From: Haliclystus octoradiatus
Lineage: Eukaryota; Cnidaria; Staurozoa; Stauromedusae; Haliclystidae
Direction: 5' to 3'
Assembly (NCBI GenBank): GCA_916610825.1
Contig: OU744450.1
Span: 3,932,578-3,996,577 of the forward strand
DNA length: 64,000 nucleotides
The notes below the pieces were generated by a model. That model was not told the origin of the DNA, ran no database searches, and worked only from the letters and a program-made list of their open reading frames with translations. The translations under genes and the position numbers were made by a program. The number at the start of each line of letters is the position of its first letter. The stretch's first letter is position 1. Below are positions 2,331-32,078 of the stretch, piece after piece.

Positions 2331-2560
2331 TGTTGTAAACGGCTTGTATGCTGTTGTTGTCACATGCTTGAATAGTTATTATCATTGTTGCTGTTAGTTA
2401 AAGCTGTTTATAACCTCTTATATTTTAGCCTCCCTTAAAGGATTATCTTGTAATAGAGGCAGCTGCATGCTGCAGTTTCTTTAGTTTTTATAATGGCTAC
2501 GCCTGAACGAAACACGTAGTTTTCTCTGACTTTACTTGACTCTAATAAAAGATTACAACA
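2331..2560 (+). repeat. Gypsy 5' LTR
   Basis: 230 bp, TGTTG...CAACA, with a polyadenylation-like AATAAA at 2544-2549. It matches 6664-6893 except for three transitions in the first third. Confidence 0.95.
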
Positions 2561-2580
2561 TGGTGTCAGATGTGGGATTT
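2561..2580 (+). promoter_or_regulatory. Gypsy primer-binding site
   Basis: TGGTGTCAGATGTGGGATTT directly abuts the 5' LTR. Its complement ends CTGACACCA, the 3' end typical of tRNA-Leu, so the primer is inferred to be a leucine tRNA. Confidence 0.7.
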
Positions 2581-2678
2581 AAAGTACCTGTGTTCTACTT
2601 CTATTAATGTTGGAGATTTGTGGCAAACTTGTTACTGATTTACAGTAAGTTATCTTCTATAAAAATCGTGATAAAATA

Positions 2679-5600
2679 ATGGCAAGCTCAAGTGAATTAT
2701 CCAAGCCTGGTCCATTGGTGTTTGATGAAAATGCTGCAGACAATTGGAGAAGATTCAAAATGAGGTTTGACATATATCTTATAGCTAAAGAGAAAGATGA
2801 CAAATCAGATAAACTAAAAGTTAATATGCTTCTCAATTTTGCTGGACCTGAGGCAATTGAGGAATATAGTCATTTCACCTATGCTGAAGGTGAAAGTGGA
2901 GATAACTTTGGAAATGTATGTAAGAAATTCCAAGATCTATGTCAAGGTGCCAGTAATGTGATCTATGAACGATTTGTTTTCTTTTCCCGATATCAATCAG
3001 ATGGAGAAAGGATTGATACATTTGTGAGTGATTTAAAAAGATTGGCCCTCACCTGTGAGTTTGATGTCTTACGTGACTCTTTGATCAGAGATAGAATTGT
3101 TGGTGGTGTGAGGTCAGATGACCTTCGTGGAGAGTTATTGAAAAAGCCCAATTTAACGTTAATAACTGCACATCAATTTTGTAGAACATATGAAGCTAGT
3201 GAGAGTCAGAAGCGATTGTTTAATACGTCCACACGAGCAGACAATACAGTAACCGTGAATGCCATAGGGCACAAGAAGGAAGAAAAATTCTCAAAATGTA
3301 AATTTTGTGGGTACCATCATGCCATGAAAAAATCGAAATGTCCGGCTGTTGGGAAAGAGTGCAAACGATGAAAAGAGACCGGACATTTTGCTAAAATGTG
3401 CACACAGCAGAGTTCTGCAAAACAAGTTGTTGCAAATATCACTCTTGACAATTCCAGTGACGAAGATAGTGATTCTGGTAGAAGTTTATACTTTGGTTCT
3501 GTTGAGCTTGCGCCAGTTTCAAGAACGAAAACCAAGAAAAGTATGGTTACTATTATTGTAGCAAACAAAGAAGTGAAAATTAAAGCAGATACTGGTGCTG
3601 ATGCCACTGTAATTCCCTACTCCCTTTACAGGAACATTACTAACAAGCCATTGAAGAAAGCGAAGCAACCTCTCAGGGGTTGGTTGGCAGAAAAAGCAAT
3701 ACACCCTAAAGGCTCTGTTCGCCTACTAACGGAGTATAAAGGTCGGAAAGTATTATTGAATTACCTTGTTGTTGATGGAAATTTTACGCCACTGCTTGGT
3801 TGTGATGCCTGCATTGACTTGGAAGTGTTGAGCTTCATGAATTTAGATTCAATTAAATGCACTCATGACAGTAGTAAGATATCAATTATAGATGAATTCA
3901 AGGATTGTTTCTCAGAACAGCCAGGAACATTGCCACGCAGGGTAAAGTTAGAAATTGACGAAAATGTAACACCAGTGGTTCATGCACCAAGAAAAATACC
4001 ATTGGCACTAATGAATCCTGTTAAACAGAAATTAGCTGATATGGAGAAAATGGGTATCATTGTCAAAGAAACAAACCACACACCATGGGTATCATCGATG
4101 GTTGTTGTAGACAAGCGAAAGAGCACACAAGTAAGTAAAGAACCAACTAAGAAAGATGTCAGGATTTGTATTGATCCACGTGATTTAAATAAAGCCTTGA
4201 AGCGAGCACATTATCCAATGGCTACCATTGAGGATACTGCATCTCGTCTAGATGGTGCCAAAGTATTTGCTGTATTAGATGCATGCAGTGGGTATTGGCA
4301 ACTACCAGTTGATGACAGTAGCTCTAAACTCCTTACCTTTAATACTCCATTGGGAAGGTATCGATTTTTGCGCCTCCCTTTTGGAATTGCACCCGCCCCA
4401 GACATTTATCAACAAGAGATGGACCGCTTGTTTGAAGTAATACCAGTTGAAATAATTGTAGATGATTTTTTAATATTCGGAAAAGACACAGAAGAACTTG
4501 ACAACAAGCTCTGCCTTGTTTTAGAACAAGCCAGAGAGGTGAAACTAAAATTTAATTCTGAAAAAATTAAATATAACTTACCTGAAGTACGTTACGTTGG
4601 TCATGTATTGTCATGTAATGGAATAAAACCTGATCCAGACAAAGTTCATGCTATCCAAGAAATGCCTGCTCCCACAGATAAAGCAGGAGTACTAAGGTTT
4701 CTAGGGACAATTAATTACTTGGACAAGTTTATACCGAATAAAGCCGACCCACAAGGACCCATTTCAAAACTATCACAGAAAACAGCAGCTTTTGTATGGG
4801 ACTCTGCACAACAGACAGCGTTTGACTCACTCAAAAGTGTTATTGCAAATGCTCCAGTGTTATCATATTTTTGTGAGAAAACACCTACAACATTGAGTGT
4901 GGATGCTAGCTGTACAGGACTTGGTGCTGTGCTTCTCCAAGATGGTAAACCCTGTGCATATGGTTCTCGGAGGCTTACAGAATGCGAAACCAGGTATGCA
5001 AACATTGAACGAGAACTCTTAGCAATTGTTTGGGGAGTTTCGAAATTTCACTCGTATATTTATGGAAGATCTGTCACAGTTCAAACTGACCATAAACCTC
5101 TTGAAGCCATTTTCAGAAAAAATCTTAATGATGCACCTCCACGGTTACAGAGAATGTTACTGAAACTCACCCAGTATGATTTAAAAGTGACCTATGTCCC
5201 TGGGAAGGATCAAATTCTCTCAGACTGCTTGAGTCGATCACCAGTTTTGGAAAGTCCTTTGTGTACAGACAAACCAGTTCCTGAAATTTACGTACATCTG
5301 GTTTCAAATTTGGGAATGAGGACTAGATCTATTGATTCATTTAGAACTGCAGTTACAAATGATTAAATCTCTCAAACGATTATTAAATATATAATTAATG
5401 GTTGGCCAGACAAAGAAAATGTGGACGAACTTGCTAGAGAGTATTGGCAATACAGAGAAGAACTAAGTATAGAGGATGGTATGATTTTTAAACACGATAG
5501 ACTAGTTGTTCCAAGGGCATTGCGACGTGAAACACTAAATGATATCCATGCAGGTCACATGGGAGTAAATAAAAGTCTGTCATTTGCCAGAGAGTACGTA

Positions 5601-6635
5601 TTTTGGCCCGGAATCTCTGCTCAGATAAAAGAGATGGTGTCTTCTTGTGGAGTGTGTAATTCTTTTAGGCATCATCAACAGAAGGAAACATTGATGCCCC
5701 ATGACATCCCTGGCTTACCGTGGCAATCCGTTGGTAGTGATCTCTTTAGCTATGCTGGAGATACCTTCTTACTTGTCACTGACTTCTACTCCTAATTCTT
5801 CGAAGTAGAGAAGCTGAATGAGCCAACAGCCAAGTGTGTTATTATTAACATGAAAAAAATCTTTGCTAGATTTGGAATTCCAGAAAAAGTATTTAGCGAC
5901 AATGGTCCACAGTATAGCAACACGCAGCACCTTTTTAGTACGTCACATGAGTTCAAAGTTTTTGCTCAAAGCTGGGGATTTACTCATACAACAAGCAGCC
6001 CTGAATATCCTCAGTCGAATGGAGCTGCTGAACGTGCGGTTCAGACATGCAAGAGGATTTTTAAGAAAGCTTACAGATCTGGAAATGACCCCTTTGAAGG
6101 AATATCGAACTTCAGAAACACTCCGTTTGATGATATTGGGTTATCACCAGCACAATTATTGATGGGAAGACGAACCAAGACAACATTGCCAACACATCGC
6201 CGACTATTAATACCCCAAGTAGTCACCCCGACTCATGTGTTGAAGGCTTTGAAACAACGTCAAGAAAAATCAGCAAAGCATTTTGATACCAATGCTAAAG
6301 ATTTACCTCCTCTTGCTGAGGGTGAGAAAGTGAGAGTAAAGCCACATCGTTCTGCAGAGTGGAGGAAAGCAGAAATATTACCAAGGTCATATATGCTGGT
6401 GGACAACCGTGGGAAAGTATTCAGAAGAAATCGACGTCAATTAATATCTGTACCAAATGATGCACCCATGTCACCTCAAATGACACAAGATATGGAAGCC
6501 AAGAATGATACAGCAGAATCACTATTGCAAAATAGCACTACAGCTCAACCAGGCAACTTAGCACTAACTGGAAATACTACAACAAGGTCCGGACGGTCTA
6601 TTAAACCACCACATAGATTAATTGAATCCTGTTAG
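2679..6635 (+). pseudogene. Gypsy gag-pol polyprotein with three in-frame stops
   Basis: One frame runs from the ATG at 2679 to TAG at 6633-6635 with stops at 3369-3371 (TGA), 5364-5366 (TAA) and 5793-5795 (TAA) and no frameshift. Order: gag with a C-terminal zinc-knuckle region (CKFCGYHH, CPAVGKEC; the first stop falls inside it), aspartic protease (DTGADATVIP near 3588), reverse transcriptase (active site IVDDF near 4455), RNase H (LSVDAS, IERELLAIVWG, TDHKPLEAIF), integrase HHCC finger (HAGHMGVNKS...CGVC), then the core with VGSDLF, FSDNGPQYS and the Glu in NGAAERAV. About 1,318 codons is normal for a single-ORF invertebrate Gypsy. It encoded the particle and the replication and integration enzymes. 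This copy could move only with help from another. Confidence 0.93.
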
Positions 6636-6663
6636 TATTGAATATTCTATATGAGGAGAGAGA

Positions 6664-6893
6664 TGTTGTAAACGGCTTGTATGTTGTTGTTGTCACATGC
6701 TTGAATAGTTATCATCATTGTTACTGTTAGTTAAAGCTGTTTATAACCTCTTATATTTTAGCCTCCCTTAAAGGATTATCTTGTAATAGAGGCAGCTGCA
6801 TGCTGCAGTTTCTTTAGTTTTTATAATGGCTACGCCTGAACGAAACACGTAGTTTTCTCTGACTTTACTTGACTCTAATAAAAGATTACAACA
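6664..6893 (+). repeat. Gypsy 3' LTR
   Basis: 230 bp, same ends as the 5' LTR, preceded by the purine tract and followed at once by GAAACGAAACG. Confidence 0.95.
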
Positions 6894-14565: not shown

Positions 14566-15008
14566 TCAATATCTTTTCTTTTGGAAACCAGATATAGTCT
14601 CATAGAGATTAGGCCTTGGTCTTGGTGGTGGAAGAGGACCTCCATCTTTAGGCCTTGGTTTAATATCTGGTCTAGGTTGAGCTAAGCTATTATCAGGCAC
14701 CCAACTTGGTTTTCGATTTACAGGACTCGATTGTGGATGTTTTACATAAATATTCTTCTGTTTACCTCCATCAGCAAGATTTAGTTTACTTCCGACAGCA
14801 CCACCTGCTGGTTTTAGTTCCGGTGAAGGCTCGTCATAACCAATCCCCGTGGCTCCTTTCTTTTCGTCGTCAGACTCGTATGCGTGTAGCTTTTGAGGTA
14901 GAGGTAAACCATCTTCTGTTATATAAACTGGATTGGCAACGCCTTCAGTGATACGCCCATTATCATATTTGCGTCGGCGTCTTCTTCTCAACGCCACAAT
15001 CAATATAC
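14566..15008 (-). CDS. EMI-EGF gene, last exon: cytoplasmic tail
   Basis: The acceptor TTTTTTACCAG is followed by the end of the membrane helix (ILIVAL), six arginines, then NPVY, two further tyrosine motifs, an SH3-type proline stretch and a TGA stop at 14566-14568. The exon enters in phase 1, matching the exon at 16057. Confidence 0.85.
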
Positions 15009-18000
15009 CTGGTAAAAAAGATATGAATAATTCAAAAATGATTCAATTTAGATTACCTCAATTATTTTCTGTTGGTTATACAATTATATAGTAGTATGTT
15101 TGACATGATAATTAGCGTTCTATGCAGGGTGTATTTGAATAGCGTATTTCCGAATTTTTAATGAATGGGTGTCACCTCAAACATTTGAGGTGACAAGTTG
15201 ATCCGAGAATTTTAGTCTACAAACATCGAAATTAAGCATAGCTATAGGATAGGATTTAACAACTTAGGCAAGACCCCCCGGGCAAGACCCGATCCAACCA
15301 TACTAAACTATCAAAACATTTCTATGGATACGGAAATTATGCAGTGATTCCGATCTTCAAAAAGTTGAGCAAGGCTATATTTAAAAATAAGACAATAGCA
15401 TCAAGCTGTCTACCGTCGAATAGCCAATGACAGGGTCCGACAAAAGGTTCAGCCTTCTGGAATCCTAGAGGCATTTCAACATTTTCTTCTGAATTTTTTG
15501 TTGATGATTGACCAATAAATCATTAAAAACATCAATTTCTTTCTGAATTTTGTCTGGCCTTTCAGGATCTAGGATCCCAGGATCCCTACTTTTGTCGGAC
15601 CATGCCCAATGAGATCTTGCATTTCAAGAAATTAGAATTGTAGTATGCAAACAACAAAACAAAACTAATTATAAAAGCAATTAGATTCCTGTTCTAGCTA
15701 TGTGTTGATGTGTATGTTTGTAATTGCAGATTGCAGTTATTATTTGTTGTCTTATGATCGTGTAATAATAACGTGAAACTTGGAGTACAACCAAAGAATG
15801 TGTCTCTCTTGACTTCTCATTATTAAAAAGTACAAAAACATCCACTTTCGGGATCACAACTCTAATGCGAAATGTCAATCAATGCCATTCAAACTTTTCA
15901 GGAAAGACAAAATAGAACATAATGATGAAGTAGTCAACCAGAATGCAGAATAACAAATTATATCGAATAGTGCATTCCGGTTGTTTATGACTTAAATTTG
16001 AAGGCAACCATTATGTGGAAGAACATATAATGAACTGGACAGCAGCAGCTACTTACAACATAAGGAGAAAATGAGTATTGATCCAAGAACAATGATTGGT
16101 ATTCCGATGTAATAGACTTCATCATCATTATTTGATTTAACAGCCAAAACATTTGTAAAAGTAATAAATGATTCCGTTGTAGTATTTGGAGTTGTTCGTA
16201 GAGGCGGTCGAGTTGTTGTGATAACTATAAAAGAAAGTTTATTTAGTATAATAGATTGAATAGTATCTCACAACAACTTATTAAATTTATAAGAGATACA
16301 TAACTTCAGGATATCTCTGACAGTGGACAACCTCTGACACTATTCCCATTAACTATAAACACTCAAATGTAGACCAAGTTTAGTAACTTATGAATTCTTG
16401 CAACCCATCATCCATCGAACCGAGAAAAAATTGTTGTTTCACAATGGCAACACTTAATCCCTGAACAGATTACAGATCTGAAAATCAAGGCAACACTTTA
16501 CAAAGCATTGATGCGAAGAATTGAGAGTATTTTATTGAGTTATCATAATCGTCATATTTATTCAGAACGTTTTCTTAGGTTACAAACTGTTGGAAAGTGA
16601 AAGTTGTCATTAGACACACGTTAACTCATGTGGCATCATAACTCATCAAATCTACTCATATGGCACGGCAAAATTAACGGCGTGCTGTATGACTAACTGA
16701 GTTCACAGCTGACGTAACAAGAATGACTTGCAGTTGTTGTGAATGTAGAACAGATGATCGCGTAGCTCAGAAGTTAGAGCACTGGACCGGATATTCAGAG
16801 ATCGGTTGGTTCGACTCCCACGCATGGACATGCTTTTCTGCTTCACAATAATTTCCAAGGTTTTAACTCACTACAGCTTCTTTCAAAGGATCGATAACTA
16901 TGCTATAAGATGTAAGGTCTAGCCAACTATGGTCTAGTTGACAGGAAAACGGACATTTACAGATAATGATTTTTGGAGTATGTAACAGAACAATACAAGT
17001 AAGCAAAAGTGACTTCTTAAGAACCCAAGTGCTTCATAAAAAGACTCTTGAAAGTATGCCTGCTTTGGACTTCTTTCATTGTATACGGTAGATCGTTCCA
17101 CTTGTGACCTGGGACTTATGCGCACCAGCATCTCGATCTGAATGGTGATTGCTCGAATTTATATAAATGTCATTGTGGCCGTGAGATCTTGTTCTGGTGG
17201 TATGCGGCAATTGGAAACAAATTGGAAGCAGAGGAGGAGCAAGTTAAACTTGGTAAAATACCCCTCTTTCAATGTCCTAGCTTGCTTAATATCCCCCATA
17301 TTAAAGTGATGTCCATTTTCCATAGAACTCTGTAATTTTACTTCGCTCAATATCCCATCTCATCTGCATCAAAGGGGAGATATTAAGCAAGTTCAACTGT
17401 ATGCAAGATCAACCATCTAGTGAACTAAATTACTCTAGAGTAATATCCATACTTGTAGATCAATTTAAAGATGACTTTTATTACCTATGCAGGAATCATT
17501 AATCATTTGATAACCATCAAGGCATGAACATGTGTATTGGTCAACAGTTCCAGGAGCCAAATTACAATCTTGTTGACATGGATTTTGTGCGAGGCAGATA
17601 TTCTGTACTAAAATAGACAAAATCAAAAATAACATCACTAATAGACATTATAATATCATTCCTTTTGACAAAGTGCAGTGAGTACACATATAAGACGATC
17701 ACACACGGATAGAAGAAATATATACCCATTACAGATAAGTTAGCATTTATACAATATGATTGAGGATCTAATGCTGAAAGTAATAGCTTAGTTATGGTGC
17801 ATCATGAGTTCTCTATAGAATTATATATATAGCCTGAAATATTTTTTATTAAAAAACATTCCAAATACGTCCTTCGCATGTTCATAGTCAACGGCTAATT
17901 TGAGTTAAATCAGCAATTGACTGCCACGAGTACTTTTTTACTCAACGCATAATTCCAACATGGAATAGTTTGAATAATGAAGCTGTATCATCTCCATGGA

Positions 18001-21000
18001 GACTCCATCTGTCCATTCCTTTAAATTTTTATTTAATAATGTAGATTAAAAGAAATTCTGTATAGATTATACCACTCAATGAAGCTGTAACGTTAGTGTA
18101 GCTTGCTACCTCTATTTTCCTGGTACATTTCTTTATCTAATGTACAACATACATACAACATACACTACACAAGCATCAATATATAGATAATTCGAAATCA
18201 AACTACGTTCGAATCTCGAGACATCCTCGGTGAAAGTGAAAGGCACAAGTGATATTTATGTGATAAAGTGATAGTTATTAAAGTGAAATTAAGGCGCCTT
18301 CGTTTCCTACGATTTGGAACTCACGAAACAGAAAGATACATCTATTTAGTTAAACAAATCAAACAAAAACCGAGACCTGGGGGATAACTCCAGCTCTTCA
18401 GGGACGGGGGGATGCTACTTTGGAAAAAGTTCAAGTACCCAAAAAGTTCAAAAAGATCTGTTGATGCTACCCTAAAATTCGATAAGTTTAAAAATGCTAC
18501 CCCAAAAATCCAATAGGTTGATTGATTTTAAGAAAATTCCCGAAAATGTTGCAAACTTTTTGCTAAAATTCCGCTTGAAAAAGTAAAAAAAGGATCCCAA
18601 AAGTTCCAAAATTTGAAACGACATACCCAAAAAGTTTTTGCTCAGCTGTAATATGGACACCAAAAAAGTGGCACGTCCCCGTATAGCCGTCATATGGGAC
18701 TTACCTCCTCCGGGACCGAGACAGTAAAAAGCGGCTTCAAAGTACGGCAATTTGAAATGTATATATATACATATCATTTATAAAGATTTCATATTATGGG
18801 GAATAGTTACGCAAATGAACACTTGGAAAAACTCGCAAATTGTTGTAAACAGTGTATATGTAACCTACATGAGCACGTTTTGTTGTCTTGTTGAATACCA
18901 TAACCAGAATTACAAGAACAAAAAAAACTGCCATGAAAGTTATTACAGCTTTGTTCGCACTGATGATTTGATAGGCATTCATCAAAATCTATAAGAAACG
19001 AGCAAGACAGTGTTAGTATAATTCATTAATTGGAATTCAACGGAAACACCATGGAGTCAATGATCCTGATTATGCATGAATAGACTATTATTCGATGTCA
19101 TTGGCATCATCCTACACGAAATCAATATCGGTCAACAGATGTATGAAAAAGTTCACTCTGTACTTGTTCCATCCGGGGGGAGGGTTACTTTAATATTTTT
19201 TAGACGATGTGTGCCATTTTCAAAAGTTGGGGAAACCTCGAAAATTTCTCAGCAAGTGAGGACGGAGACCCTGAAATTTCATCATCATTTTACGAGTAAA
19301 ATAAAAATTTTAAAAATCTCTAAGTTGACACCTTAAGTTTCACAAGAATTTGGAATGACGCACTCCTTAAAAATGGCACGTCCCCGTATAGCCAATGTAT
19401 AGAAGTCCCCCCGAGTGTTGTATGCAAATGTTGTGTAAGATAGCGTTGTTATCTAATCAAGGAAGAACTCGATATGGCTCTGAGAGAGATTGAGGTTGAG
19501 TTTGTTTATAATTCTTCATGTCATATGTGTTGCTGTTGCAATTTTCACTTATCCGTAAACAGGATAAGTTTGAAATCCTTTTCATTGACGTTGTTTGTTG
19601 ATAGACCAGCATTCTGAAGCAGATTTGCATTTTACTGCCAGTTAAGACCTTCTTGCTATGAACCAGTAGTACCCCTGCTAAGGATTGAACCAAAGCGTGT
19701 GACCAAGAAGGTCCAAAGTCCTAATTGTACACAAAAATGGGTATTTTTTCAGAATTGAAAAGACTTTTCCATATTTTGGAGCGTCAGTACTTTAATACTG
19801 CCGTAAAGATGACTTTGCTATTTATTAAGACCTTGATAGCCAGTAAGCACATTAACGACGGCCAAACTGGAACAAATTAATCCTGCTATCGCAAGATCAG
19901 ATGGAGCCTCGATATGGCTATCTTCGTTACCACTTAAATCTGAGAACTTCAACCTCACAAAAAGAGAATTCTTTCATGCCATTGCTCTTCGTTATGGCTG
20001 GCAACTACAAAGACTCCCAGATGAATGTATCTGCCATGCAAAGTTTAACGTAGATCAGGCGCTATCATGCAAAGTTGGTGGTTTTGTGTTGTTGAGGCAC
20101 AATGAGCTAGTTAACGTAACAGCTGACCTTCTTTCTACTGTTTGCAAAGATGTGAGGAAAGAGCCAGCACTGCAAACAACTCCAGCAAGCACGGACGAGT
20201 TACGTGCTGACATTTGTGCCCGGGGCTTCTGGCAGAGGTTGCAAAGAGCATTCATGGATGTTAGGATTTTCTATCCTTTCGCTCCTAGCTACCGAAACCA
20301 GACCCTGAAATCATCAATGAAATCAATGGAGTCCATCAAGAAAAGAAAATACAACGAAAGAATCCTTAACCAAGAGCATAGGTCATTCACCCCTTTAATC
20401 TTTACAACAAATGGTGGAATGAGTAGAGAAACCCATCAGTTCTACAGAGGACTGAGTGACATGATCTCTGAAAAACATGGTCTACCTTTTGGTGAAACTT
20501 CTGCCTGGGTTAAGCGCAAAATCTGCTTCAGCTTACTCCGCACCACTATCATCTGCATCCGAGGTTCATGATCCCGCAAACATCAAATTCCAGACGGCGA
20601 CCTTAGTGATCTGCAGCTTGTCAATGAAGCATCCAGTATTGTATAACTATTAATAAATATTGCTCAAATTAATAATCTATTTATCTAATGTACATATTAC
20701 TCATTACAAATTATATCTAAGTTAAATTAGCTGCAATGACAATAGTTAACATTTTCATCAATAGTTTACTACAACCTGTATATTCCATATTTTAAATTAT
20801 ATTCTTCAGTATTTGTTTAAAAAAAAATAAAAAAATTAATCCTGCTATTGTTATGAGGGTAAAATGATTGAGAGCGATAAAATAACATCCACTCTCGTAG
20901 AGATTTCAAAACGGAGTCAAATGTAATTAATAAAATGAAGGGCAATACACAGGGGAAAGGGGAAGTCGATATTAGTCTAATTATGGTAATACGCATTAGC

Positions 21001-24000
21001 ATAACACTATACGACGAATACCTCCGAATATAAACGATTTCCAATATTTCGTCTTGAAATTGCCCGAAATATGAGTTAAATATTTCACTGGCGGGGTGTT
21101 ACACTATACGGCCGTACGTACAATACTATACTCATTCCCTGTTAATATTCAAAATGTTACATCACCTGAACATGTTCTTCCATTTGTATCAAGAATAAGA
21201 CCAGTTCCGCATGAGCATTCGTATGTTCCATTCAAATTTTTGCAAGTTTTTTGACACCCACCATTTTCAACATCACATTCATCGACATCTGTAAAATAGA
21301 ATAGAAACCTGTATAAAGCAGCCATCCATTGGACGTAGATAGATTGACGATTGTGTGCAGGTGGTCTATACATACAGGGTTGATACAGATAGAAAATAAT
21401 ATTTACAGGACTGTAAATAATGAGTTTGGTTTTATGCTTCTTTCTATTTCTATTATTATTATAAGTCCTAATATATCACAGGCAGAGCCATCTATTTACA
21501 AGAGTTGGGACACTCATGCCATTTTTGTTTTTTGGCCTGGACCGGAGCACGTTTTTAACAGCAGTGCGCATGTGCAAGAGAAAGTTGTGGTTTTTCAGCC
21601 ATTTTGGAACTGTGTGAAATGGTTTGCGATCGTTTAACATGATATAAGAGTAATATAACCATCTATTAGTTGTCTTTCTCCATATTTATTTGCTGGACTC
21701 TCAAAATAAGAATAAAATTTACTTCAATGTATACTTTCTTATCGATCTCTTCAGCATGTTGCTCGAGAGTAAATCAGATCAATGCTATTGGAATTGCTAA
21801 ATGGACAAGGAGTTTGTGGAGTATGGACTACATCTCTTACTCTCTTACGCTTATTCTTTGCAGTCAAATGCAACTTTTTTCTAGTTCTTGTCCCCAGTTG
21901 GAATAGTAAACAATATTTTATTTCGATTACTATTTCGTCTATTAACACAACAATTAATAATTTAATAGCCTTTGTTTGTTTTCACCGATAAAAGTTGTAT
22001 TTTTCCGCGCGCTTCGTTTAAAACAGGAAACCTGATGCCAAAAAAACAAGAACCCTGGTGCCGAAAGTACGAAAATGGCGTCCAAAAAATCACGTGAATG
22101 GCATCTGTCCAATAGGAGACGATAGCGGCACATGAAAGCGTGTCCCAACTCTTGTAAATAGATGGCTCTGATCACAGGAGGATTAGCTCAGATGGCAGAG
22201 CAACCGAACTTCAGATCGATCATATCTGATCGACTGTGGTTCAAATACCCCTCAGGTCAACTCAGCCTTAACTTTATCTGAAACATCAATTGAGTACCAT
22301 CTAAGGATGGCGGATGGAATGGTGGCCCAGAGGGAATTGCATTGTGAGTAGCTGCGGCGCATCGTTGCGCATTGACAATCAAGACCTATCTGTCATGAAA
22401 TCTGTTGAAATTGATCTGCAGTGTCGCGGCTGAGGTCAACAAAGAGCGTTTAAAATCATTGCTCTCAGCGAAAAAAGCCACTCATCTAGAAATAGAGGAG
22501 TGGTACGGGTGCCTTCGGTAGGGCAACACCGTCTACATTACTTTACTTATACGTCCTAATAGATATATTACCTTGACTACAATTGTTTCCACGGTAACCA
22601 GTCCCAGTACAATTACAAACATTCGTTGAAACGCAGACTCCTGTTCCACATCCTCCTTCACAGATTGCTAAAGGAAAGAAAATCACAACACACAGTCAAC
22701 AACAGAATATTTTTTTTCTATTTGGGATTTATCATTTTTCCACAAACTCGCTTGCAGCTTTTTTTCACCGGGGTGGTTGGTTAATTTGTTAGTATTTTTT
22801 TGAAACTTGTGTGCGTTTAATAGCCGGATGCCCTTCCTGACGCCAACCTAGCGGGCCGCCAACCCTGCGGGCCGTGGTCCAACGCCCTAGCCACTACACC
22901 AAGGCAGCAAACAGACTGATCAGATCTTATAATTATGGTATTTTCATCCGGGGGTAACTTCCTTACTTTTGGTATACGGGGACGTTCAAATATTAAAGGG
23001 TACCATTTTAAAAATCCCGAAAAAATCATTAGGGTATGCTTAGTCATGAAAATTTTTTGAGGTATCCTTTTGACGCTCTTGCAATTTTTTCATTTTGCAA
23101 AACAAATTTTGTCTATGAATTATATTTTTTTCATTTGTTTTGGTTGAATCTGTCATTCATAAAAATATATTTGGGGTATCTTTTTTCATCATGTGGAAAA
23201 TTGTTATGGTCATTCTGCCAAAGTTCCATTTGAACGACCCAATCGAAGCGCAATGGAAGTTACCCCCCTCCGATATTTTTAATGAGAATGTCAGGTTATT
23301 CATGACAGAAGATATAACCTTCCAGGATAATCATGCTGCCGGATAAAATCAACTTTTAAAATTGGTGGAATGATCCCATGGAATGTCCCAGAAGGAATTG
23401 CATTGTTAAGAGCTATGGTTCACCAATGAATCTTGACATTCGATGCCTGTTATCCCATGAAATTTGTTGAAATTTATGATATGCAATGCAATGACTAAGA
23501 TCGAGAATGTTGAACGATAATGTTGTGCTCGTGTTAAAATATAAGATGAAATTTACACTGAGATACAATTATAGTTGTAATTTAGAGAATTGCAATACAG
23601 TGAAACCTGTATATAACAGCCATCTATGAGAGGCAGATAAATTGACCATTATAGACGGGTGGCCTTAATATACAGGTTTGATTTGATTCAATAGAAAATA
23701 CTATTTCAGACATTGCAAGATTGACCACTATAGACAGGTGGCCGCTTTATAGAGTTGACCGTTATAACAGGTTCAACTGTAATTTGAATAACAAAAGCAA
23801 ATATGAAGAATGTGCAATCATATATAATGTACATACGCTCTGGGCATTCTCTTCCCACTTGATTGTAACCGGGGCAACAAAAATGCTCTATTCTTGGTCG
23901 TGAGACATAAACAGTTCTAAAAACAAATGTAATTAATAATCAATGAATAATTGGGGTTTTTACGAGTTTTGTTAATTGCTTTGTAAGCCACATGATGAAA

Positions 24001-27000
24001 AAGATACCTCAAATATATTTTAATGAATGACTGATTCAATCAAAACAGATGAGAAAAAAAATTCATAGGCAAAATTTGTTTTTCAGAATGAAAAAAGTGC
24101 AAAAGCGTCAAAAGGATACCTCAAAAATTTTCATGACTAAGCATACCTTAAAATTTTTCTGGATTTCGGAAAAGGTAACCTTTAATATTTGAACGTCTCC
24201 GTACACCAAAAGTATGGAAATCACCGCCCCCCTGGTTTGTAAGATAGGAAAATTACTCATTAAAGCTTCATTTAATTCAAAATAGTTTGATCTTCAATAT
24301 TATATTGTATTTAGGGGTTATAGAGACTGACACGGGTGTTTTGGTTACGAATAAATGCGCGAGTTGGCTGTATAATGATTGAGAAATTGTATAAGTGTAG
24401 GAACCTTCCTGAACCATCTAGAACATTCTAGAACATAGGAGAACCTACATGACTCCCCGCATTACTCACAATGACCATGCATGATCTAGCAGCTTCTAGC
24501 ATTTATCTAAACACTATAAATACAGTAAATGAAACTATGAAAACTATGAGAACTGAATGTACAGTCTACTATCAACATGTCAACTTGGAATTAATATTAT
24601 TATTCATAAGAAGAAATATACCATACAAATCAATTCAACCTACGTTGTTATTATTATTTCTTCAACATAATTCTACAGTTCTCATCAATTGGTCCGTCGA
24701 ATTATAAGAACAACTCATCAATTGGTCCGTCGAATTATAAGAACAACTCATCAATTGGTCCGTCGAATTACAAAAACAACTAATTATGAATAATCTTCAA
24801 GACTTTACAACATAATTTAAAATCTGAAAGTATTTTATTACAGCATGGAATTGAACACAACATTTTATTCACGACCGCGGCATCAAAACAATATAACTAG
24901 ATTGATTTTCACACTGAGGAACAATGGCATTTTACGTAACTAATCAAAACACGCAGAAAACACATGAAATGGAACTAAACACAAGAAATGGAACTAAACA
25001 CAAGAGTGGAACTATGGAACTACACACGAGAAATGGAAATAAACACAGGAAATGGAACTGAACACAAGGAATTAGATTACCCAAAACTGAAGAGACTGAA
25101 CTAAAAAAGTAAGATTTTAAAATACTGAACATAAACCATTGAACATTCCAACATTTTGGAACTTTTAAATATTGAACACTAAACATTGGACATTCCAACA
25201 TCATAAAACTTTTAAATATTGAAACATTCAACATTCAACTAAGAACATTGAAACACAATGAACACACTAAGAATACTAAACAACTAAGAAACACACAAGA
25301 ACACACAACAGAGTTCAAAATTGAACACACAAGAATAAGCAACAACTCATGAAAATACTGAATCCATCAAACACACAAGAATAAGCAACAACTCAAGAAA
25401 ATACTGAATTAATCAAGCACACAAGAATAAGCAACAACTCAAGAAAATACTGAATTCATCAAACTCACAAGCAAAAAATATGACTATAAAAGAAACATTG
25501 AAGATTACCAAGCTCATAGAAGAAACTGAAATTAAATCAAATACTTGTATGAAAATTTCTTTTTCTGGAAATCCAAAGCAATTAAACAAATTGGTATGCA
25601 CCAAAATTGTAATGAATTTTCTCATTAACTGTTATGCAATTAGTCTATAAGCATATCTAAAACCTTCATTAATAGCTTCTACTATACCATCATTACTTAC
25701 ATTTATATTTACATACATTTATTATTTACAATTTAGCATATATTAAAGCATTAATCTTTCTCATTTTTAGCCTATATCATGCATTTTTATTTCTGGCTCC
25801 GCCATCTGGCGGGGGGAGTTATGTAGGAACCTTCCTGAACCATCTAGAACATTCTAGAACATAGGAGAACCTACATGACTCCCCGCATTACTCACAATGA
25901 CCATGCATGATCTAGCAGCTTCTAGCATTTATCTAAACACTATAAATACAGTAAATGAAACTATGAAAACTATGAGAACTGAATGTACAGTCTACTATCA
26001 ACATGTCAACTTGGAATTAATATTATTATTCATAAGAAGAAATATACCATACAAATCAATTCAACCTACGTTGTTATTATTATTTCTTCAACATAATTCT
26101 ACAGTTCTCATCATAAGCCACCGAGACCGCCGAGTATGATCAATAAAGTTCAAATTCTAGTAATATTAAGGTACTTATGTTGTCTTTGCTGTTTCAATAG
26201 TGCTCAATGCCATAAATGCAGATCCGTTTAATAATTAATAAACGAACAAATCAAAGATATTCACTTTATACTACTATTAGTTTCAAGCCAAGGCGATGAT
26301 CAGGCGATTTAATCTGTTCAAAATTCTAAAAACTTCAAATTTTAAATATATCTGTTTTTATCAGAAATTCAAAAAGTTCGAAAGAATAAAAGTCACAAAC
26401 AGTGGTAAAAGTATTTGTAATCGGTCCAATGACATGTAATTAGACAGTTAAGGCCAAAACCAGGAAATAGTTACAAAATGATTGACAATGATGTCTGAAC
26501 TGAAGTTTTCAGTAAAATGATAGTGTGTGTGGCTAAATTTTGCAATGAATAATTAAAAGTATTATAGAATAAAACAACATTGGAACTATATTTTGAAAAT
26601 GAATGTACATGTTTTTTACTTATTATGAAGCCAAATTCGCTGGCGAAGTTTTCTTAGGTTGTTGTTGTTTATTTGTCAAAAATACTGACCGGATTTTATA
26701 GGAAAGTAAAACTTCCATTTACATTTATCCTTTAAATACATAAAGAAAGCATAAAATTAAAATGTGTTAATTGTGTTAATTATTATATGTAGTAGTTCAT
26801 ATAGATTGTTAATTAACTTTGCGTAAGGCATTTTATCAGATCGCTTTTGATTCTCCTTAATTCCAAAGAATCAATATTAAGATACTTCAAACGAGTTTGA
26901 TATGTTTGAGCGTAAATGTGTTTGATGTGGCATACATGCTTGATAAATGTTCTTTGAACCTTTTCAATGCTAATGATATCTTTAATTAAATATGGTGACC

Positions 27001-30000: not shown

Positions 30001-32078
30001 CAAAACTCTTAGCCAAATTAGAATCTTACGGCATCAAATACGAACTTTTTGAATGGATTAAATCCTTTCTTTCTGGTCGTTCGCAAAGCGTCATTGTATC
30101 TGATGAAATCTCAAGTTCTCTCCCAGTTTCCAGTGGTGTCCCACAGGGTTCTGTGTTAGGACCGCTACTTTTTTTACTTTATGTTAATGATATTGAGAGC
30201 TGTTTGGATGGTTTGTGCGAAGTGCGTCTGTTTGCAGACGATGCAAAATTTTTTATCGCTCGAAATGATTCTTCCCCTGTCAATGCACTCACAACATCGT
30301 TAGATAAATTTACAACATGGGCCGAAAGCTGGCAACTGAGAATTGCTTATGATAAATGTAGTACAATATCCTTTGGTACATCCAACGCAAGTGAGCTTGA
30401 TTATTTCCTCGGGAGTAACAAACTGAAGCAAACAGGAAAACTTCGTGACCTTGGCCTCATCATTACTTCAGATCTTAAATTTTCTACTCATTGTTCTTCT
30501 ATCTCCGCTAAAGCTAAAACAAGATCTTACCTTCTACTGAAATGCTTTACCTCACGCAATGCACAATTACTTATTAAAGCCTATACTACCTATGTACGAC
30601 CTCTATTAGAAAAAGACACCCAACTATGGAGTCCTTATTTACAAAAAGACATTGATTTGATTGAATCAACTCAAAGACGTTTTACTAAATATGTGTGTTC
30701 TAGAGCAAGATTAAAAGATAATGGTTATAACAGTCGTTTGGCCCTGTTTGAAATTGAATCTTTAGAAATCCGTAGAATTAAATTTGATTTATGCATGGTG
30801 TACAAAATTATAAATAATCTAATTGACTTTCCTGATAACATTTTTATAAAACGAAACATAAGNNNNNNNNNNNNNNNNNNNNNNNNNNNNNNNNNNNNNN
30901 NNNNNNNNNNNNNNNNNNNNNNNNNNNNNNNNNNNNNNNNNNNNNNNNNNNNNNNNNNNNNNNNNNNNNNNNNNNNNNNNNNNNNNNNNNNNNNNNNNNN
31001 NNNNNNNNNNNNNNNNNNNNNNNNNNNNNNNNNNNNNNNNNNNNNNNNNNNNNNNNNNNNNNNNNNNNNNNNNNNNNNNNNNNNNNNNNNNNNNNNNNNN
31101 NNNNNNNNNNNNNNNNNNNNNNNNNNNNNNNNNNNNNNNNNNNNNNNNNNNNNNNNNNNNNNNNNNNNNNNNNNNNNNNNNNNNNNNNNNNNNNNNNNNN
31201 NNNNNNNNNNNNNNNNNNNNNNNNNNNNNNNNNNNNNNNNNNNNNNNNNNNNNNNNNNNNNNNNNNNNNNNNNNNNNNNNNNNNNNNNNNNNNNNNNNNN
31301 NNNNNNNNNNNNNNNNNNNNNNNNNNNNNNNNNNNNNNNNNNNNNNNNNNNNNNNNNNNNNNATTTCTTTAACAATAAAAATAATATGATAATGAACGTT
31401 TATTATACATAAAGTAATTCTAAAACCCTGGAAATACTGAGTTATCTCAACGATTTATTTATGCGCCATTGTAGGCATCAAAAACACGTATTAGAAATTC
31501 ATAAAGATTTGCCCATGCGAATGATCACTTAAGTTATAAGTCCATTTCATTTACGAAACAATTTGGATTCAGTCAACATAATATATAACTTCATCAGAAA
31601 TTAAAAGTTTTGCCTATCTGTAAAATGTGCTAGACATATATAATTATCATTATCATTCCAAAAAGCTTTGTTTATAAACCAAAACTTCACTCATGCATGA
31701 TTTGATAATAATATTGTAAAATTCATGGCTAAAATACAATGTAGGCCAAATTAAGGATTGTATCACATAAAGATTATTCCTTATTTATTGTAAACGGTTA
31801 TGACCAAAGTTTAAAATCAAAACAGACAAAGGGAGAGAGAGATGAGCTCTGATTAATTATTAATATAGCAATCAAGGATATTAGCATATCAGAATTTGAG
31901 TTTACTAAGACAAAGTTTGATATCGTTTTGCATTTTGGATTGTAAAAATAACTAATTGGATAACATTCAAAATAACTTACCCGTCGGGGAAAAGAATTAA
32001 TTGTGCTTGAACATACGATGTCAAAAATAAAAACAAACAACAGCACTTTACTGTTGTAGATACTATACTCTCCGCCAT
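14566..32078 (-). CDS. EMI-EGF single-pass transmembrane protein (gene B, spliced)
   Basis: Joined exons on the minus strand: 32078-31981 (signal peptide), [EMI exon 1 expected in the N gap], 23916-23837 (EMI end), 22667-22572 (EGF), 21288-21166 and 18988-18869 (calcium-binding EGFs), 17607-17485 (EGF), 16224-16057 (stalk and membrane helix), 15008-14566 (tail). All joins are in phase with GT-AG borders. With the gap exon supplied from copy A the protein is about 460 residues: signal peptide 1-25, EMI about 33-104, EGFs 105-257, Thr-rich stalk, helix about 298-320, then six Arg, NPVY at 339-342, KNIYVKHP, PLPPPRPRP and NLYETI. The N-terminal order resembles EGFL7/EGFL8. The membrane anchor and NPxY tail recall MEGF10/Draper/CED-1 engulfment receptors. 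A surface receptor or adhesion role is inferred. Introns are packed with transposable elements. Confidence 0.85.
15009..16056. other. intron, nothing else seen
   Basis: About 1.05 kb of AT-rich intron with GT-AG borders. No mobile-element ends were recognised. Confidence 0.5.
16057..16224 (-). CDS. EMI-EGF gene exon: Thr-rich stalk and membrane helix
   Basis: Between TTTTATAG and T|GTAAGT. Codes ITTTRPPLRTTPNTTTE, an O-glycosylation-like stalk, then the acidic NNDDE and the helix start YYIGIPIIVLGSILIFSLC. Phase 1 at both ends. Confidence 0.85.
16225..17484. other. intron with a tRNA-like relic
   Basis: AT-rich intron. The only recognisable item is the tRNA-like sequence at 16757-16829. Confidence 0.5.
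16757..16829 (+). repeat. tRNA-like sequence (relic or SINE head)
   Basis: The A-box-like TAGCTCAGAAGTTAGAGCAC and the B-box-like GGTTCGACTCC stand at tRNA spacing. The two acceptor strands do not pair over seven bases, so a functional tRNA is not supported. Confidence 0.45.
17485..17607 (-). CDS. EMI-EGF gene exon: fourth EGF
   Basis: Acceptor TATTTTAG and donor ATAG|GTAATA. The exon codes one EGF-like module with six cysteines (QNICLAQNPCQQDC...YTCSCLDGY...DSCI). It lacks the DxDE calcium signature. Phase 1 at both ends. Confidence 0.85.
17608..18376. other. intron, nothing else seen
   Basis: AT-rich intron sequence up to the MITE at 18377. Confidence 0.45.
18377..18714. mobile_element. 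CCGGGG-type MITE, 338 bp
   Basis: Begins CTGGGGGATAACTCC and ends GGACTTACCTCCTCCGGG. It is flanked by a perfect 8-bp duplication, ACCGAGAC (18369-18376 and 18715-18722). Internally it is close to the element at 13638. Confidence 0.9.
18869..18988 (-). CDS. EMI-EGF gene exon: calcium-binding EGF 2
   Basis: Acceptor TTCTTATAG, donor TCAT|GTAGGT. Codes (D)FDECLSNHQCEQSC with CNNFHGSFFC, which fits the calcium-binding and Asn/Asp-hydroxylation pattern C-x-[DN]-x4-[FY]-x-C. Phase 1 at both ends. Confidence 0.85.
19173..19414. mobile_element. CCGGGG-type MITE, degraded
   Basis: Left end CCGGGGGGAGGGTTACTT; right part carries GGCACGTCCCCGTATAGCC and AAGTCCCCCCGAG, as in the other family members. 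No clear 8-bp duplication remains. Confidence 0.6.
19415..19862. other. intron, nothing else seen
   Basis: No exon, repeat end or promoter-like signal was recognised. Confidence 0.4.
19863..20643 (+). pseudogene. C-terminal domain of an RT-linked mobile-element protein, 5'-truncated
   Basis: An open plus-strand frame reads GASIWLSSLPLKSENF, then LRYGWQLQRLP, CICHAKFNVDQALSCKVGG, RHNELVNVTADLL, DICARGFWQRLQRAFMDVR, FTPLIFTTNGGM and ICFSLLRTTI. A TGA at 20569-20571 interrupts it and the frame closes at TAA 20641. From memory the same blocks end uncharacterised reverse-transcriptase proteins repeated in cnidarian and other invertebrate genomes. The D-I...G-F-W...D-V-R spacing and the C-x-C...H/C cluster hint at a nuclease-like fold, but that is inference. 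It lies antisense in an intron of the EMI-EGF gene. Confidence 0.55.
20644..21165. other. intron, nothing else seen
   Basis: AT-rich intron without recognisable features. Confidence 0.4.
21166..21288 (-). CDS. EMI-EGF gene exon: calcium-binding EGF 1
   Basis: Acceptor TATTTTACAG, donor TTCAG|GTGATG. Codes (D)VDECDVENGGCQKTC with CKNLNGTYEC, the classic calcium-binding EGF signature. Phase 1 at both ends. Confidence 0.88.
21305..21412. mobile_element. Tigger-like MITE remnant
   Basis: AAACCTGTATAAAGCAGCCATCC and later CAGGTGGTCTATACATACAGG match blocks of the intact element at 23598-23779. No intact ends remain. Confidence 0.5.
21483..22170. mobile_element. hAT MITE, 688 bp, copy 1
   Basis: Ends are perfect inverted repeats starting CAGAGCCATCTATTTACAAG. 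An 8-bp duplication ATCACAGG lies on both sides (21475-21482, 22171-22178). It is the same family as 40599-41284 in the opposite orientation. A 65-codon reading frame is shared by both copies, but no transposase is encoded. Confidence 0.93.
22177..22551 (+). repeat. tRNA-derived SINE, copy 1
   Basis: The head GGAGGATTAGCTCAGATGGC has an A box, and the B-box-like GGTTCAAATACC lies about 50 bases on. A body shared with copies at 34981 and 45142 follows, ending near GCAACACCGTCTACATTAC. The hAT MITE to its left duplicated the first bases of this SINE, so the MITE came second. Confidence 0.85.
22572..22667 (-). CDS. EMI-EGF gene exon: first EGF
   Basis: Acceptor TTTCCTTTAG, donor CAAG|GTAATA. 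Codes ICEGGCGTGVCVSTNVCNC and GYRGNNC, a compact EGF with the C-x3-C-x4-C-x5-C-x-C-x9-C spacing seen directly after EMI domains. Phase 1 at both ends. Confidence 0.85.
22820..22912 (-). repeat. tRNA-derived SINE fragment
   Basis: On the minus strand, TTGGTGTAGTGGCTAGGGCG resembles a tRNA A box and is followed by GGCGTCAGGAAGGGCATCCG, a block common in invertebrate and fish tRNA SINEs as I recall. Truncated. Confidence 0.5.
22947..23273. mobile_element. CCGGGG-type MITE, 327 bp
   Basis: Starts TCCGGGGGTAACTTCC and ends GGAAGTTACCCCCCTCCGA. Flanks TATTTTCA and TATTTTTA form an 8-bp duplication with one change. Confidence 0.85.
23340..23530 (+). repeat. SINE body fragment, old copy
   Basis: Blocks such as GGAATTGCATTGT and ATGAAATTTGTTGAAATT align with the SINE body at 22320-22460 with many changes. 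Confidence 0.45.
23598..23779. mobile_element. Tigger/pogo-like MITE, 182 bp
   Basis: Starts CAGTGAAACCTGTATATAAC and ends GTTATAACAGGTTCAACTG, inverted to each other, with TA on each side. CAGT ends plus a TA duplication are typical of pogo/Tigger. Confidence 0.8.
23837..23916 (-). CDS. EMI-EGF gene exon: EMI domain 3' half
   Basis: Acceptor GTTTTTAG, donor GAGC|GTATGT. Codes TVYVSRPRIEHFCCPGYNQV then GRECPE; the CCPGY block is the hallmark end of EMI domains. It enters in phase 2, which fits the EMI exon found only in copy A, and leaves in phase 1. Confidence 0.85.
23975..24236. mobile_element. CCGGGG-type MITE, inverted and partly degraded
   Basis: Reverse-oriented relative of 22947-23273 (AAAGATACCTCAAATATATT..., GAACGTCTCCGTACACCAAAAG, CACCGCCCCCCTGG). 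The outer ends are eroded. Confidence 0.6.
24401..24443 (+). promoter_or_regulatory. heat-shock-element array in the LTR
   Basis: Five-base units in register: GAA at 24401, TTC 24406, GAA 24411, mismatch 24416, GAA 24421, TTC 24426, GAA 24431, mismatch 24436, GAA 24441. That is two perfect three-unit HSF sites (GAAnnTTCnnGAA) plus one more phased unit, about 75 bp upstream of the TATA box. The 3' LTR has the same array at 25827-25869. HSF trimers are known to bind this pattern; activity here is inferred. Confidence 0.75.
24515..24522 (+). promoter_or_regulatory. LTR TATA box
   Basis: TATAAATA within CACTATAAATACAG, placed downstream of the heat-shock-like array as expected for a U3 promoter. 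Confidence 0.6.
24681..24779 (+). repeat. 33-bp tandem repeat across the LTR/primer-site junction
   Basis: The unit CTCATCAATTGGTCCGTCGA plus ATTATAAGAACAA occurs about three times (24681, 24714, 24747). Each unit starts with the last seven bases of the LTR, followed by the putative primer-binding site TTGGTCCGTCGAATTA. Confidence 0.85.
25822..26113 (+). repeat. 3' LTR of the non-coding element
   Basis: Identical by eye to 24396-24687, including the heat-shock-like array and TATA box. Confidence 0.9.
26114..26812. other. intron, nothing else seen
   Basis: AT-rich. A block near 26639-26730 (GTTGTTGTT...TTTGTCAAAAAT...AAACTTCCA) weakly resembles 33620-33730, so it may be an old dispersed repeat. 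Confidence 0.35.
26813..29209 (-). pseudogene. CR1-like LINE ORF2, frameshifted
   Basis: Minus strand, with several frameshifts (near 28800, 28300, 28130 and 27920). Order: endonuclease part (HHESERSGAIFF, YIGDFNYP, CDHKSVEF), linker (KVELFNNYFATVF), then reverse transcriptase (YLDFSKAFDTVSHNKL, SDVPQGSVLGPLLF, the FADDAK catalytic box) and a C-terminal region (VRPLLESVSPVWSPYL, LRRIKSDLIK). Non-LTR retrotransposon that copied itself by target-primed reverse transcription. The frameshifts make it inactive. It lies in the same direction as the EMI-EGF gene, in an intron. Confidence 0.9.
29147..29493. repeat. AT-rich repeat copy 2 with 53-bp flanking duplications
   Basis: 29147-29199 and 29441-29493 are the same 53 bases of LINE endonuclease sequence with one mismatch (for example CTCGGACTCATGGTGAATAA). 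The 241 bp between them match 42-250. Confidence 0.75.
29562..30862 (+). pseudogene. CR1-like LINE reverse transcriptase, cut by the N gap
   Basis: One open frame of about 430 codons with SNYRPISLTCICCKVMERII, VYIDFAKAFDTVTHSKLL, SGVPQGSVLGPLLFLLYVND, the FADDAKFF active site, and a C-terminal LEIRRIKFDL motif. The endonuclease is missing upstream and the 3' end is lost in the N run. It is head-to-head with the minus-strand LINE and a different subfamily from it. The frame itself is intact as far as it can be read. Confidence 0.88.
30863..31362. other. assembly gap (500 N)
   Basis: Exactly 500 N, so probably a placeholder of unknown true length. By comparison with copy A, the missing EMI exon 1 should lie 105-235 bp left of 31363, inside this gap. 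Confidence 0.95.

Follow-up and report, generated by a model that had tools for sequence, protein, structure and literature searches.

In plants, heat shock elements (HSEs) are well established as drivers of long terminal repeat (LTR) retrotransposons, with ONSEN as the example. According to passages of two reports, the LTR of ONSEN/COPIA78 in the Brassicaceae is bound in vitro by the heat shock factor (HSF) HSFA2, and its activation needs HSFs (PMC3907296, PMC5059998); its HSE was reported to stem from the duplication of a shorter proto-element (PMC5059998). In animals, the literature gave Caenorhabditis Helitrons, described in parts of two papers as mobile elements that carry working HSEs (PMC6927752; also PMC8896005), and the HIV-1 LTR, which passages of another report as bound and activated by HSF1, with an HSE discussed (PMC9367301). 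For the fungus Cryptococcus, excerpts of a further paper report putative HSEs in the LTRs of TCN3 and TCN12, with TCN3 insertions recovered at 37 °C but absent at 30 °C and heat activation of TCN12 (PMC12810828). Among the matches listed in the open literature, which is no proof of absence, there was neither an animal miniature non-autonomous LTR retrotransposon (TRIM) nor an animal genomic LTR retrotransposon with an HSE. Here we describe a 64,000-nucleotide stretch of DNA from the staurozoan Haliclystus octoradiatus (hereafter, the window) that holds a TRIM whose LTRs carry an array of GAA/TTC pentamers. We favour, with moderate confidence, the reading that this LTR has an HSE upstream of a TATA box and that its transcription is driven by HSF and is probably heat-inducible.

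ONSEN is a coding Copia element, with a Copia gag-pol. Our TRIM resembles it in being an LTR retrotransposon whose LTR holds an HSF-type element, and the decamer structure of the array may suggest a duplication origin similar to the one that those passages give for ONSEN. Unlike ONSEN, it is non-coding, resides in an animal and makes 4-bp duplications; unlike the Caenorhabditis Helitrons, as far as they are described in the passages available, it is an LTR element whose own promoter bears the array; and in both comparisons the heat response of our element is putative. Since no recognisable protein was found where a Copia gag-pol would be expected, it is ONSEN-like in logic and not a member of ONSEN/COPIA78. 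With the Helitrons it would share the spread of HSEs through an animal genome by a mobile element (parts of PMC6927752 and PMC8896005), and with HIV-1 the HSF1-type control, proposed here, of the LTR of a retroelement in an animal host. HIV-1 is an infectious coding human retrovirus, and the relevant passages give no long array comparable to ours (PMC9367301). The likeness to TCN3 and TCN12 lies in LTRs with putative HSEs; those elements differ in being fungal, TCN3 was judged likely autonomous, and a role of the HSEs was only suggested in the sections concerned (PMC12810828).

Animal TRIMs are described in passages on ta-TRIM of Echinococcus (PMC4558846), biv-TRIM (PMC6934838), PbTRIM of ants (PMC3532108) and Helenus/Ajax (PMC10886601). 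These passages share with our element a small LTR pair without coding capacity and, in most cases, a primer-binding site (PBS) and a polypurine tract (PPT), biv-TRIM being without a canonical PBS (PMC6934838). Duplications of 4 bp are common to our TRIM, PbTRIM (PMC3532108) and animal Helenus (PMC10886601), and a PBS for tRNA-Tyr in tandem units distinguishes our TRIM from these elements as the passages present them. The terms 'HSE' and 'heat shock' have no occurrences in the PbTRIM (PMC3532108), Helenus (PMC10886601) and ta-TRIM (PMC4558846) texts, and 'HSE' has none in the biv-TRIM text (PMC6934838).

The array occupies LTR positions 6-48, between the LTR start and the TATA box. An initial annotation of this DNA had described GAA or TTC triplets every 5 bp from 24401 to 24443, and this was confirmed unit by unit: GAA (24401), TTC (24406), GAA (24411), ATC (24416), GAA (24421), TTC (24426), GAA (24431), TAG (24436) and GAA (24441), with 7/9 units fitting the alternating order. 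Both perfect three-unit sites that it had named are present, as are the array copy in the 3' LTR and the box some 75 bp further on, which is TATAAATA at 24515 with 71 bp between (Table 1). The array is far beyond chance expectation: dinucleotide shuffling of the LTR, repeated 5000 times, gave at best 4 units (12/5000) versus the 7 observed, and 60 shuffles of the whole window gave a maximum of 5 (1/60), a comparison in which the units are not independent draws since the array is also readable as a run of imperfect decamers. In the real window a score of 7 occurs only in the two LTRs; overlapping offsets of the LTR arrays aside, scores of 5 elsewhere fall in GAAAG repeats (446-716) and GAAAC repeats (2251-2286).

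The genome searched comprises 261.9 Mb in 33 contigs, with the window on contig C6. Other copies, for which the initial annotation had proposed a search, were found in quantity. An LTR segment of 23 bp outside the array matched 417 places with up to three mismatches, and the exact seven-unit array core occurs at 263 places, versus 205 for a neighbouring segment of the LTR whose mask was equally specified, a comparison in which the copies are not independent; the reversed control gave 0 in all three cases. A search with the LTR yielded 613 first-look candidates, the best 40 of which, when scored, contained 41 matches with 98-100% identity; because the ranking is best-first, these matches say nothing on older copies. 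For the interior, the best 40 of 128 first-look candidates were scored. The TRIM family moved recently, since matching 4-bp duplications flank 12 of the 13 elements examined with both full LTRs, and 7/13 LTR pairs show no substitution between the LTRs (one of these seven has a one-base gap). The exception to the matching duplications is L034, the LTRs of which differ by 7 substitutions. The window's own copy, for which identical LTRs, a clean TAAG duplication and recent movement had all been claimed, is in line with each of these claims (292/292 bp identical; TAAG on both sides). Heat dependence of this mobility is putative.

A counterpart of the LTR array was found in host heat-shock genes. 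The host genome gave 28 HSP70-family matches; three of them represent near-complete genes without introns (profile 1-597/599, frames of 640-641 aa), and intronless HSP70 genes are a classically heat-inducible gene type. All three promoters contain the TTCnnGAAnnnTCnnG layout starting 96-97 bp ahead of an ATAAATA box: the sites TTCCAGAATAATCTCGAA, TTCCAGAATAATCTCGTA and TTCTCGAATAGTCTCGAA begin 97, 97 and 96 bp before ATAAATA, and the LTR counterpart TTCCTGAACCATCTAGAA, at 24406, begins 110 bp before the same heptamer. The imperfect unit is ATC in the LTR, ATC in two of the HSP70 promoters and GTC in the third. The putative LTR promoter shares the HSP70 promoter layout, imperfect TC unit included. 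Over both strands of the window, this layout has 5 matches, 4 of them within the element's LTRs. The HSF DNA-binding domain matched at three places in the genome, all above cut-off; the match with PKYFKHSNFASFVRQLNM reads, as we take it, like a canonical HSF1 exon, and the other two HSF-domain genes look divergent. At L083 (C1:31762115-31762630), two of the three intronless HSP70 genes stand head to head, with nearly mirror-image promoters (~0.5 kb).

Under the favoured reading, heat or protein stress would release HSF trimers; these would occupy the array, in U3 of the LTR, and would cause RNA polymerase II to transcribe from the TATA box that follows after 71 bp. We infer the transcription start site from this TATA box; judged on sequence features, the HSE lies in the LTR upstream of that start, as in an ONSEN-type element. 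Host tRNA-Tyr would then prime the element RNA at one of the two to four tandem PBSs, which are seen in sequence and presumed to act in this way. Reverse transcription and integration would be supplied by a separate autonomous element, perhaps Ty3/gypsy-like because the duplications are 4 bp. More tentatively, a TRIM with an HSP70-like HSE could have been amplified in the germ line under stress, seeding hundreds of HSF-responsive promoters and thereby connecting genes close by to the heat-shock response (in the present case from an antisense position within an EMI-EGF gene); this extension is possible rather than probable. If heat does drive the family, it would offer a young, many-copy animal system in which to measure stress-induced transposition and the spread of HSF sites directly.

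Several observations weigh against a heat-responsive LTR. The HSP70 layout pattern was written after the promoters had been seen, and the three promoters represent fewer than three independent cases because the genes are paralogous. The canonical-looking HSF match contains one TAG, which was taken as an intron boundary. In addition, three elements read GCA at unit 3 in each of their two LTRs; the first perfect trimer was thus probably already lacking when they moved, and unit 3 is probably dispensable. That the full array is not needed would be consistent with a real HSF site whose main role is that of an enhancer (constitutive, germline or developmental), with expression without heat, as would the two HSF-domain genes that we read as divergent and that exist besides the HSF1-like exon. 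The layout that the LTR has in common with intronless HSP70 promoters argues the other way, and we consider heat-independent expression of this kind fairly unlikely.

The decamer structure belongs with these adverse points, since the array may have arisen through it as decamer repeats from one duplicated seed. Perfect six-unit GAA/TTC arrays occur at 21 places in the genome (each listed on both strands); all 9 of the loci inspected, out of 15 fetched, are GTTCATGAAC-type decamer repeats, and one further place is the LTR at L076. Other genomic GAA/TTC arrays sit in apparent transposon repeat sequence, and the pentamer pattern alone is no proof of an HSE because GTTCATGAAC decamer repeats form longer perfect arrays. 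For the pattern TTCNAGAANNTTCNAGAA, there were 13+16 strand matches versus 9+6 for its reversed control, a modest excess. The GTTCATGAAC arrays at L061-L075 (C1, C2, C4, C5; 9/15 loci inspected) consist of a palindromic decamer with perfect 5-bp GAA/TTC spacing, several with CCCTGCGAAA/TTTCGCAGGG at their start or end, and are perhaps the terminal repeats of a DNA transposon.

Conservation was evaluated in an alignment of 66 LTRs: 63 within length limits from loci L001-L060, L076 and L080, plus L045, L081 and L082. L047 and L048 (outside the length limits, and near-identical duplicates of L045) were left out, as were LTRs truncated or cut at a locus end. Seven of the nine units are kept in 55/66 LTRs, six in 10/66 and five in 1/66. 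The array is free of indels in 65/66, so that the pentamer register, the loss of which had been set beforehand as evidence against an HSE, is kept across these relatives. The second trimer core is also intact in 65/66, the exception being the old LTR at L045. L076, an 87% identical relative, has seven consecutive perfect units, with TTC in place of the window's ATC. The initial annotation had also proposed that the array be compared with other LTR bases for better conservation, and here the outcome was unfavourable: Fitch counts over the 66 LTRs gave 0.419 changes per site in the array versus 0.482 elsewhere in the LTR, with no clear excess conservation. Core triplets had 0.407 and spacers 0.438 changes per site, and of 250 LTR segments of 43 bp, 174 changed as little as the array or less. 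This test is weak both ways because the sample is biased to young copies, whose decay is mostly neutral. A weaker place count leaned in the opposite direction: when the first 100 listed array places were set against 79 control places over the same range, 58 had both, 42 the array only and 21 the control only (binomial P 0.011), a count on which we do not rely given one chosen control segment, listed places only, and LTR pairs and duplicates that are not independent.

An array that reads as imperfect decamers and has no clear excess conservation, in a genome where GTTCATGAAC decamers elsewhere yield perfect GAA/TTC spacing, might owe its pentamer spacing to decamer duplication near the LTR end, as a by-product with no HSF role. 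The array nonetheless lies at promoter distance from the TATA box, has the same layout as the HSP70 promoters and recurs in exact form at 263 places, and we regard such a by-product as quite unlikely. A role of the array in integrase or LTR-end recognition instead of transcription, as its start at LTR base 6 might suggest, is highly improbable: the opposite LTR end has no such array, units 1-3 are changed in family members (for unit 3, three elements have the change in both their LTRs), and retroviral-type integrases need mainly the terminal bases.

The total length of the element is 1718 bp, with two direct LTRs of 292 bp. It had been annotated as a non-coding TRIM/LARD-type element, and no recognisable protein was found in it (longest stop-to-stop frame 96 aa; no match in a Pfam scan of 2 of the 8 listed frames). 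By its size, it is classed as a TRIM, the limit of <4 kb being taken from a passage of PMC4558846. The other TRIM features are likewise present, namely a TG...CA LTR pair, a tRNA PBS, a PPT, an apparent lack of coding capacity, a target-site duplication and multiple copies.

Table 1 Features of the TRIM in the window (positions count from the first letter of the window).
Feature	Position	Strand	Remark
Target-site duplication TAAG, left copy	24392..24395	.	sequence reading
5' LTR, 292 bp, TG...CA	24396..24687	+	100% identical to 25822-26113
GAA/TTC pentamer array, 7/9 units, perfect trimers 24401-24413 and 24421-24433	24401..24443	+	
TATAAATA box, 71 bp after array	24515..24522	+	
Three tandem 33-bp units, each opening with the LTR's last 7 nt and each holding the PBS	24681..24784	+	
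Primer-binding site TGGTCCGTCGAA	24690..24701, also 24723-24734, 24756-24767	+	12/12 complementary to host tRNA-Tyr 3' end plus CCA
Internal region, 1134 bp, apparently non-coding	24688..25821	+	
Polypurine tract region CTGGCGGGGGGAGTTA, directly before 3' LTR	25806..25821	+	
3' LTR, 292 bp	25822..26113	+	100% identical to 5' LTR
Pentamer array copy in 3' LTR, perfect trimers 25827-25839 and 25847-25859	25827..25869	+	
Target-site duplication TAAG, right copy	26114..26117	.	sequence reading

The TGGTCCGTCGAA PBS begins 2 nt past the 5' LTR. Its primer was guessed to be tRNA-Tyr from the acceptor stem and was then searched by pattern with two bases open, which gave 10 genes, with the acceptor CCGTCGA in 10/10. 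One of these genes, when folded, gave tRNA-Tyr(GTA) with an intron of 17 nt, ending TTCGACGGA, and the tRNA-Tyr 3' end plus CCA pairs 12/12 with the PBS. An assignment as tRNA-Leu (ARAGORN, bacterial mode) was rejected, the result being tRNA-Tyr(GTA) with introns allowed and the standard code. Across the 13 elements there are 2 to 4 PBS copies each, in tandem 33-bp units (tandem units also stand at L080:302-433), and repeated primer sites may raise the chance of priming. A GGCGGGGGGAG-type PPT occurs in 11/13 LTR pairs, nine being identical over 16 bp and two (L027 and L080) one base off; it is degraded in L013 and absent at the interior end of L034.

No autonomous partner sharing the PBS and the LTR ends of the TRIM was found among the candidates examined, which were the L080 pair and a Gypsy-type element in the window. 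The former (4.95 kb; LTRs 4.66 kb apart, C5:2655041/2659701) was rejected as a TRIM copy with a nested insertion, and the latter (LTRs 2331-2560/6664-6893) for its different LTRs and different sequence after the 5' LTR.

The family also occurs in less regular arrangements. Array-bearing LTRs stand in opposite orientation 4072-4073 bp apart at C2:2690105/2694177, C2:4131258/4135331 and C2:31714339/31718412, and a similar opposed pair is 4368 bp apart (C2:20780988/20785356). One LTR of each opposed pair has A for C in one spacer; the pairs are perhaps a composite repeat that spreads LTRs. At C2:4412277-4413027, successive occurrences of the LTR segment are 364, 182 and 182 bp apart, which perhaps represents a small tandem array of LTR pieces. 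The TATA box of the old LTR at L045 holds an insertion of ~174 bp with inverted ends (CAGTCAAACCTGT...ACAGGTTTCACTG; L045:1547-1720). The L047/L048 LTRs, 10 kb apart, were rejected as an element, since they represent one old LTR on a duplicated segment.

With regard to the genomic setting, the neighbouring gene lies on the minus strand. The second half of an EMI domain was matched at 23709-23939, with a Pfam E of 0.015 that falls short of the curated cut-off. EGF-type exons, spanning 17468-22695, lie at 22546, 21152, 18810 and 17468, those at 21152 and 18810 passing the curated cut-off. The frame 14566-15042, taken by eye as the tail of the EMI-EGF gene, has no Pfam match. Because the TRIM is on the plus strand and upstream of the half-EMI exon of this minus-strand gene, it is probably intronic and antisense to the EMI-EGF gene. 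The insertion into an EMI-EGF intron given in the initial annotation is likely in view of the minus-strand EGF-type exons and the half EMI; the exon with the first EMI half, which should lie beyond the TRIM given that only the second half is at 23709-23939, was not found.

Other mobile sequences share the window. The Gypsy-type element (2331-6893) has 230-bp LTRs that are 99% identical and adjoins the GAAAC repeats; its protease, reverse transcriptase and RNase H matches are above cut-off, and its integrase match is below its own. A 435-aa frame at 57003-58310 matches DDE_Tnp_4, which we take to be a Harbinger-like transposase. A run of N at ~30862-31368 lies inside a frame that resembles a reverse transcriptase by eye.
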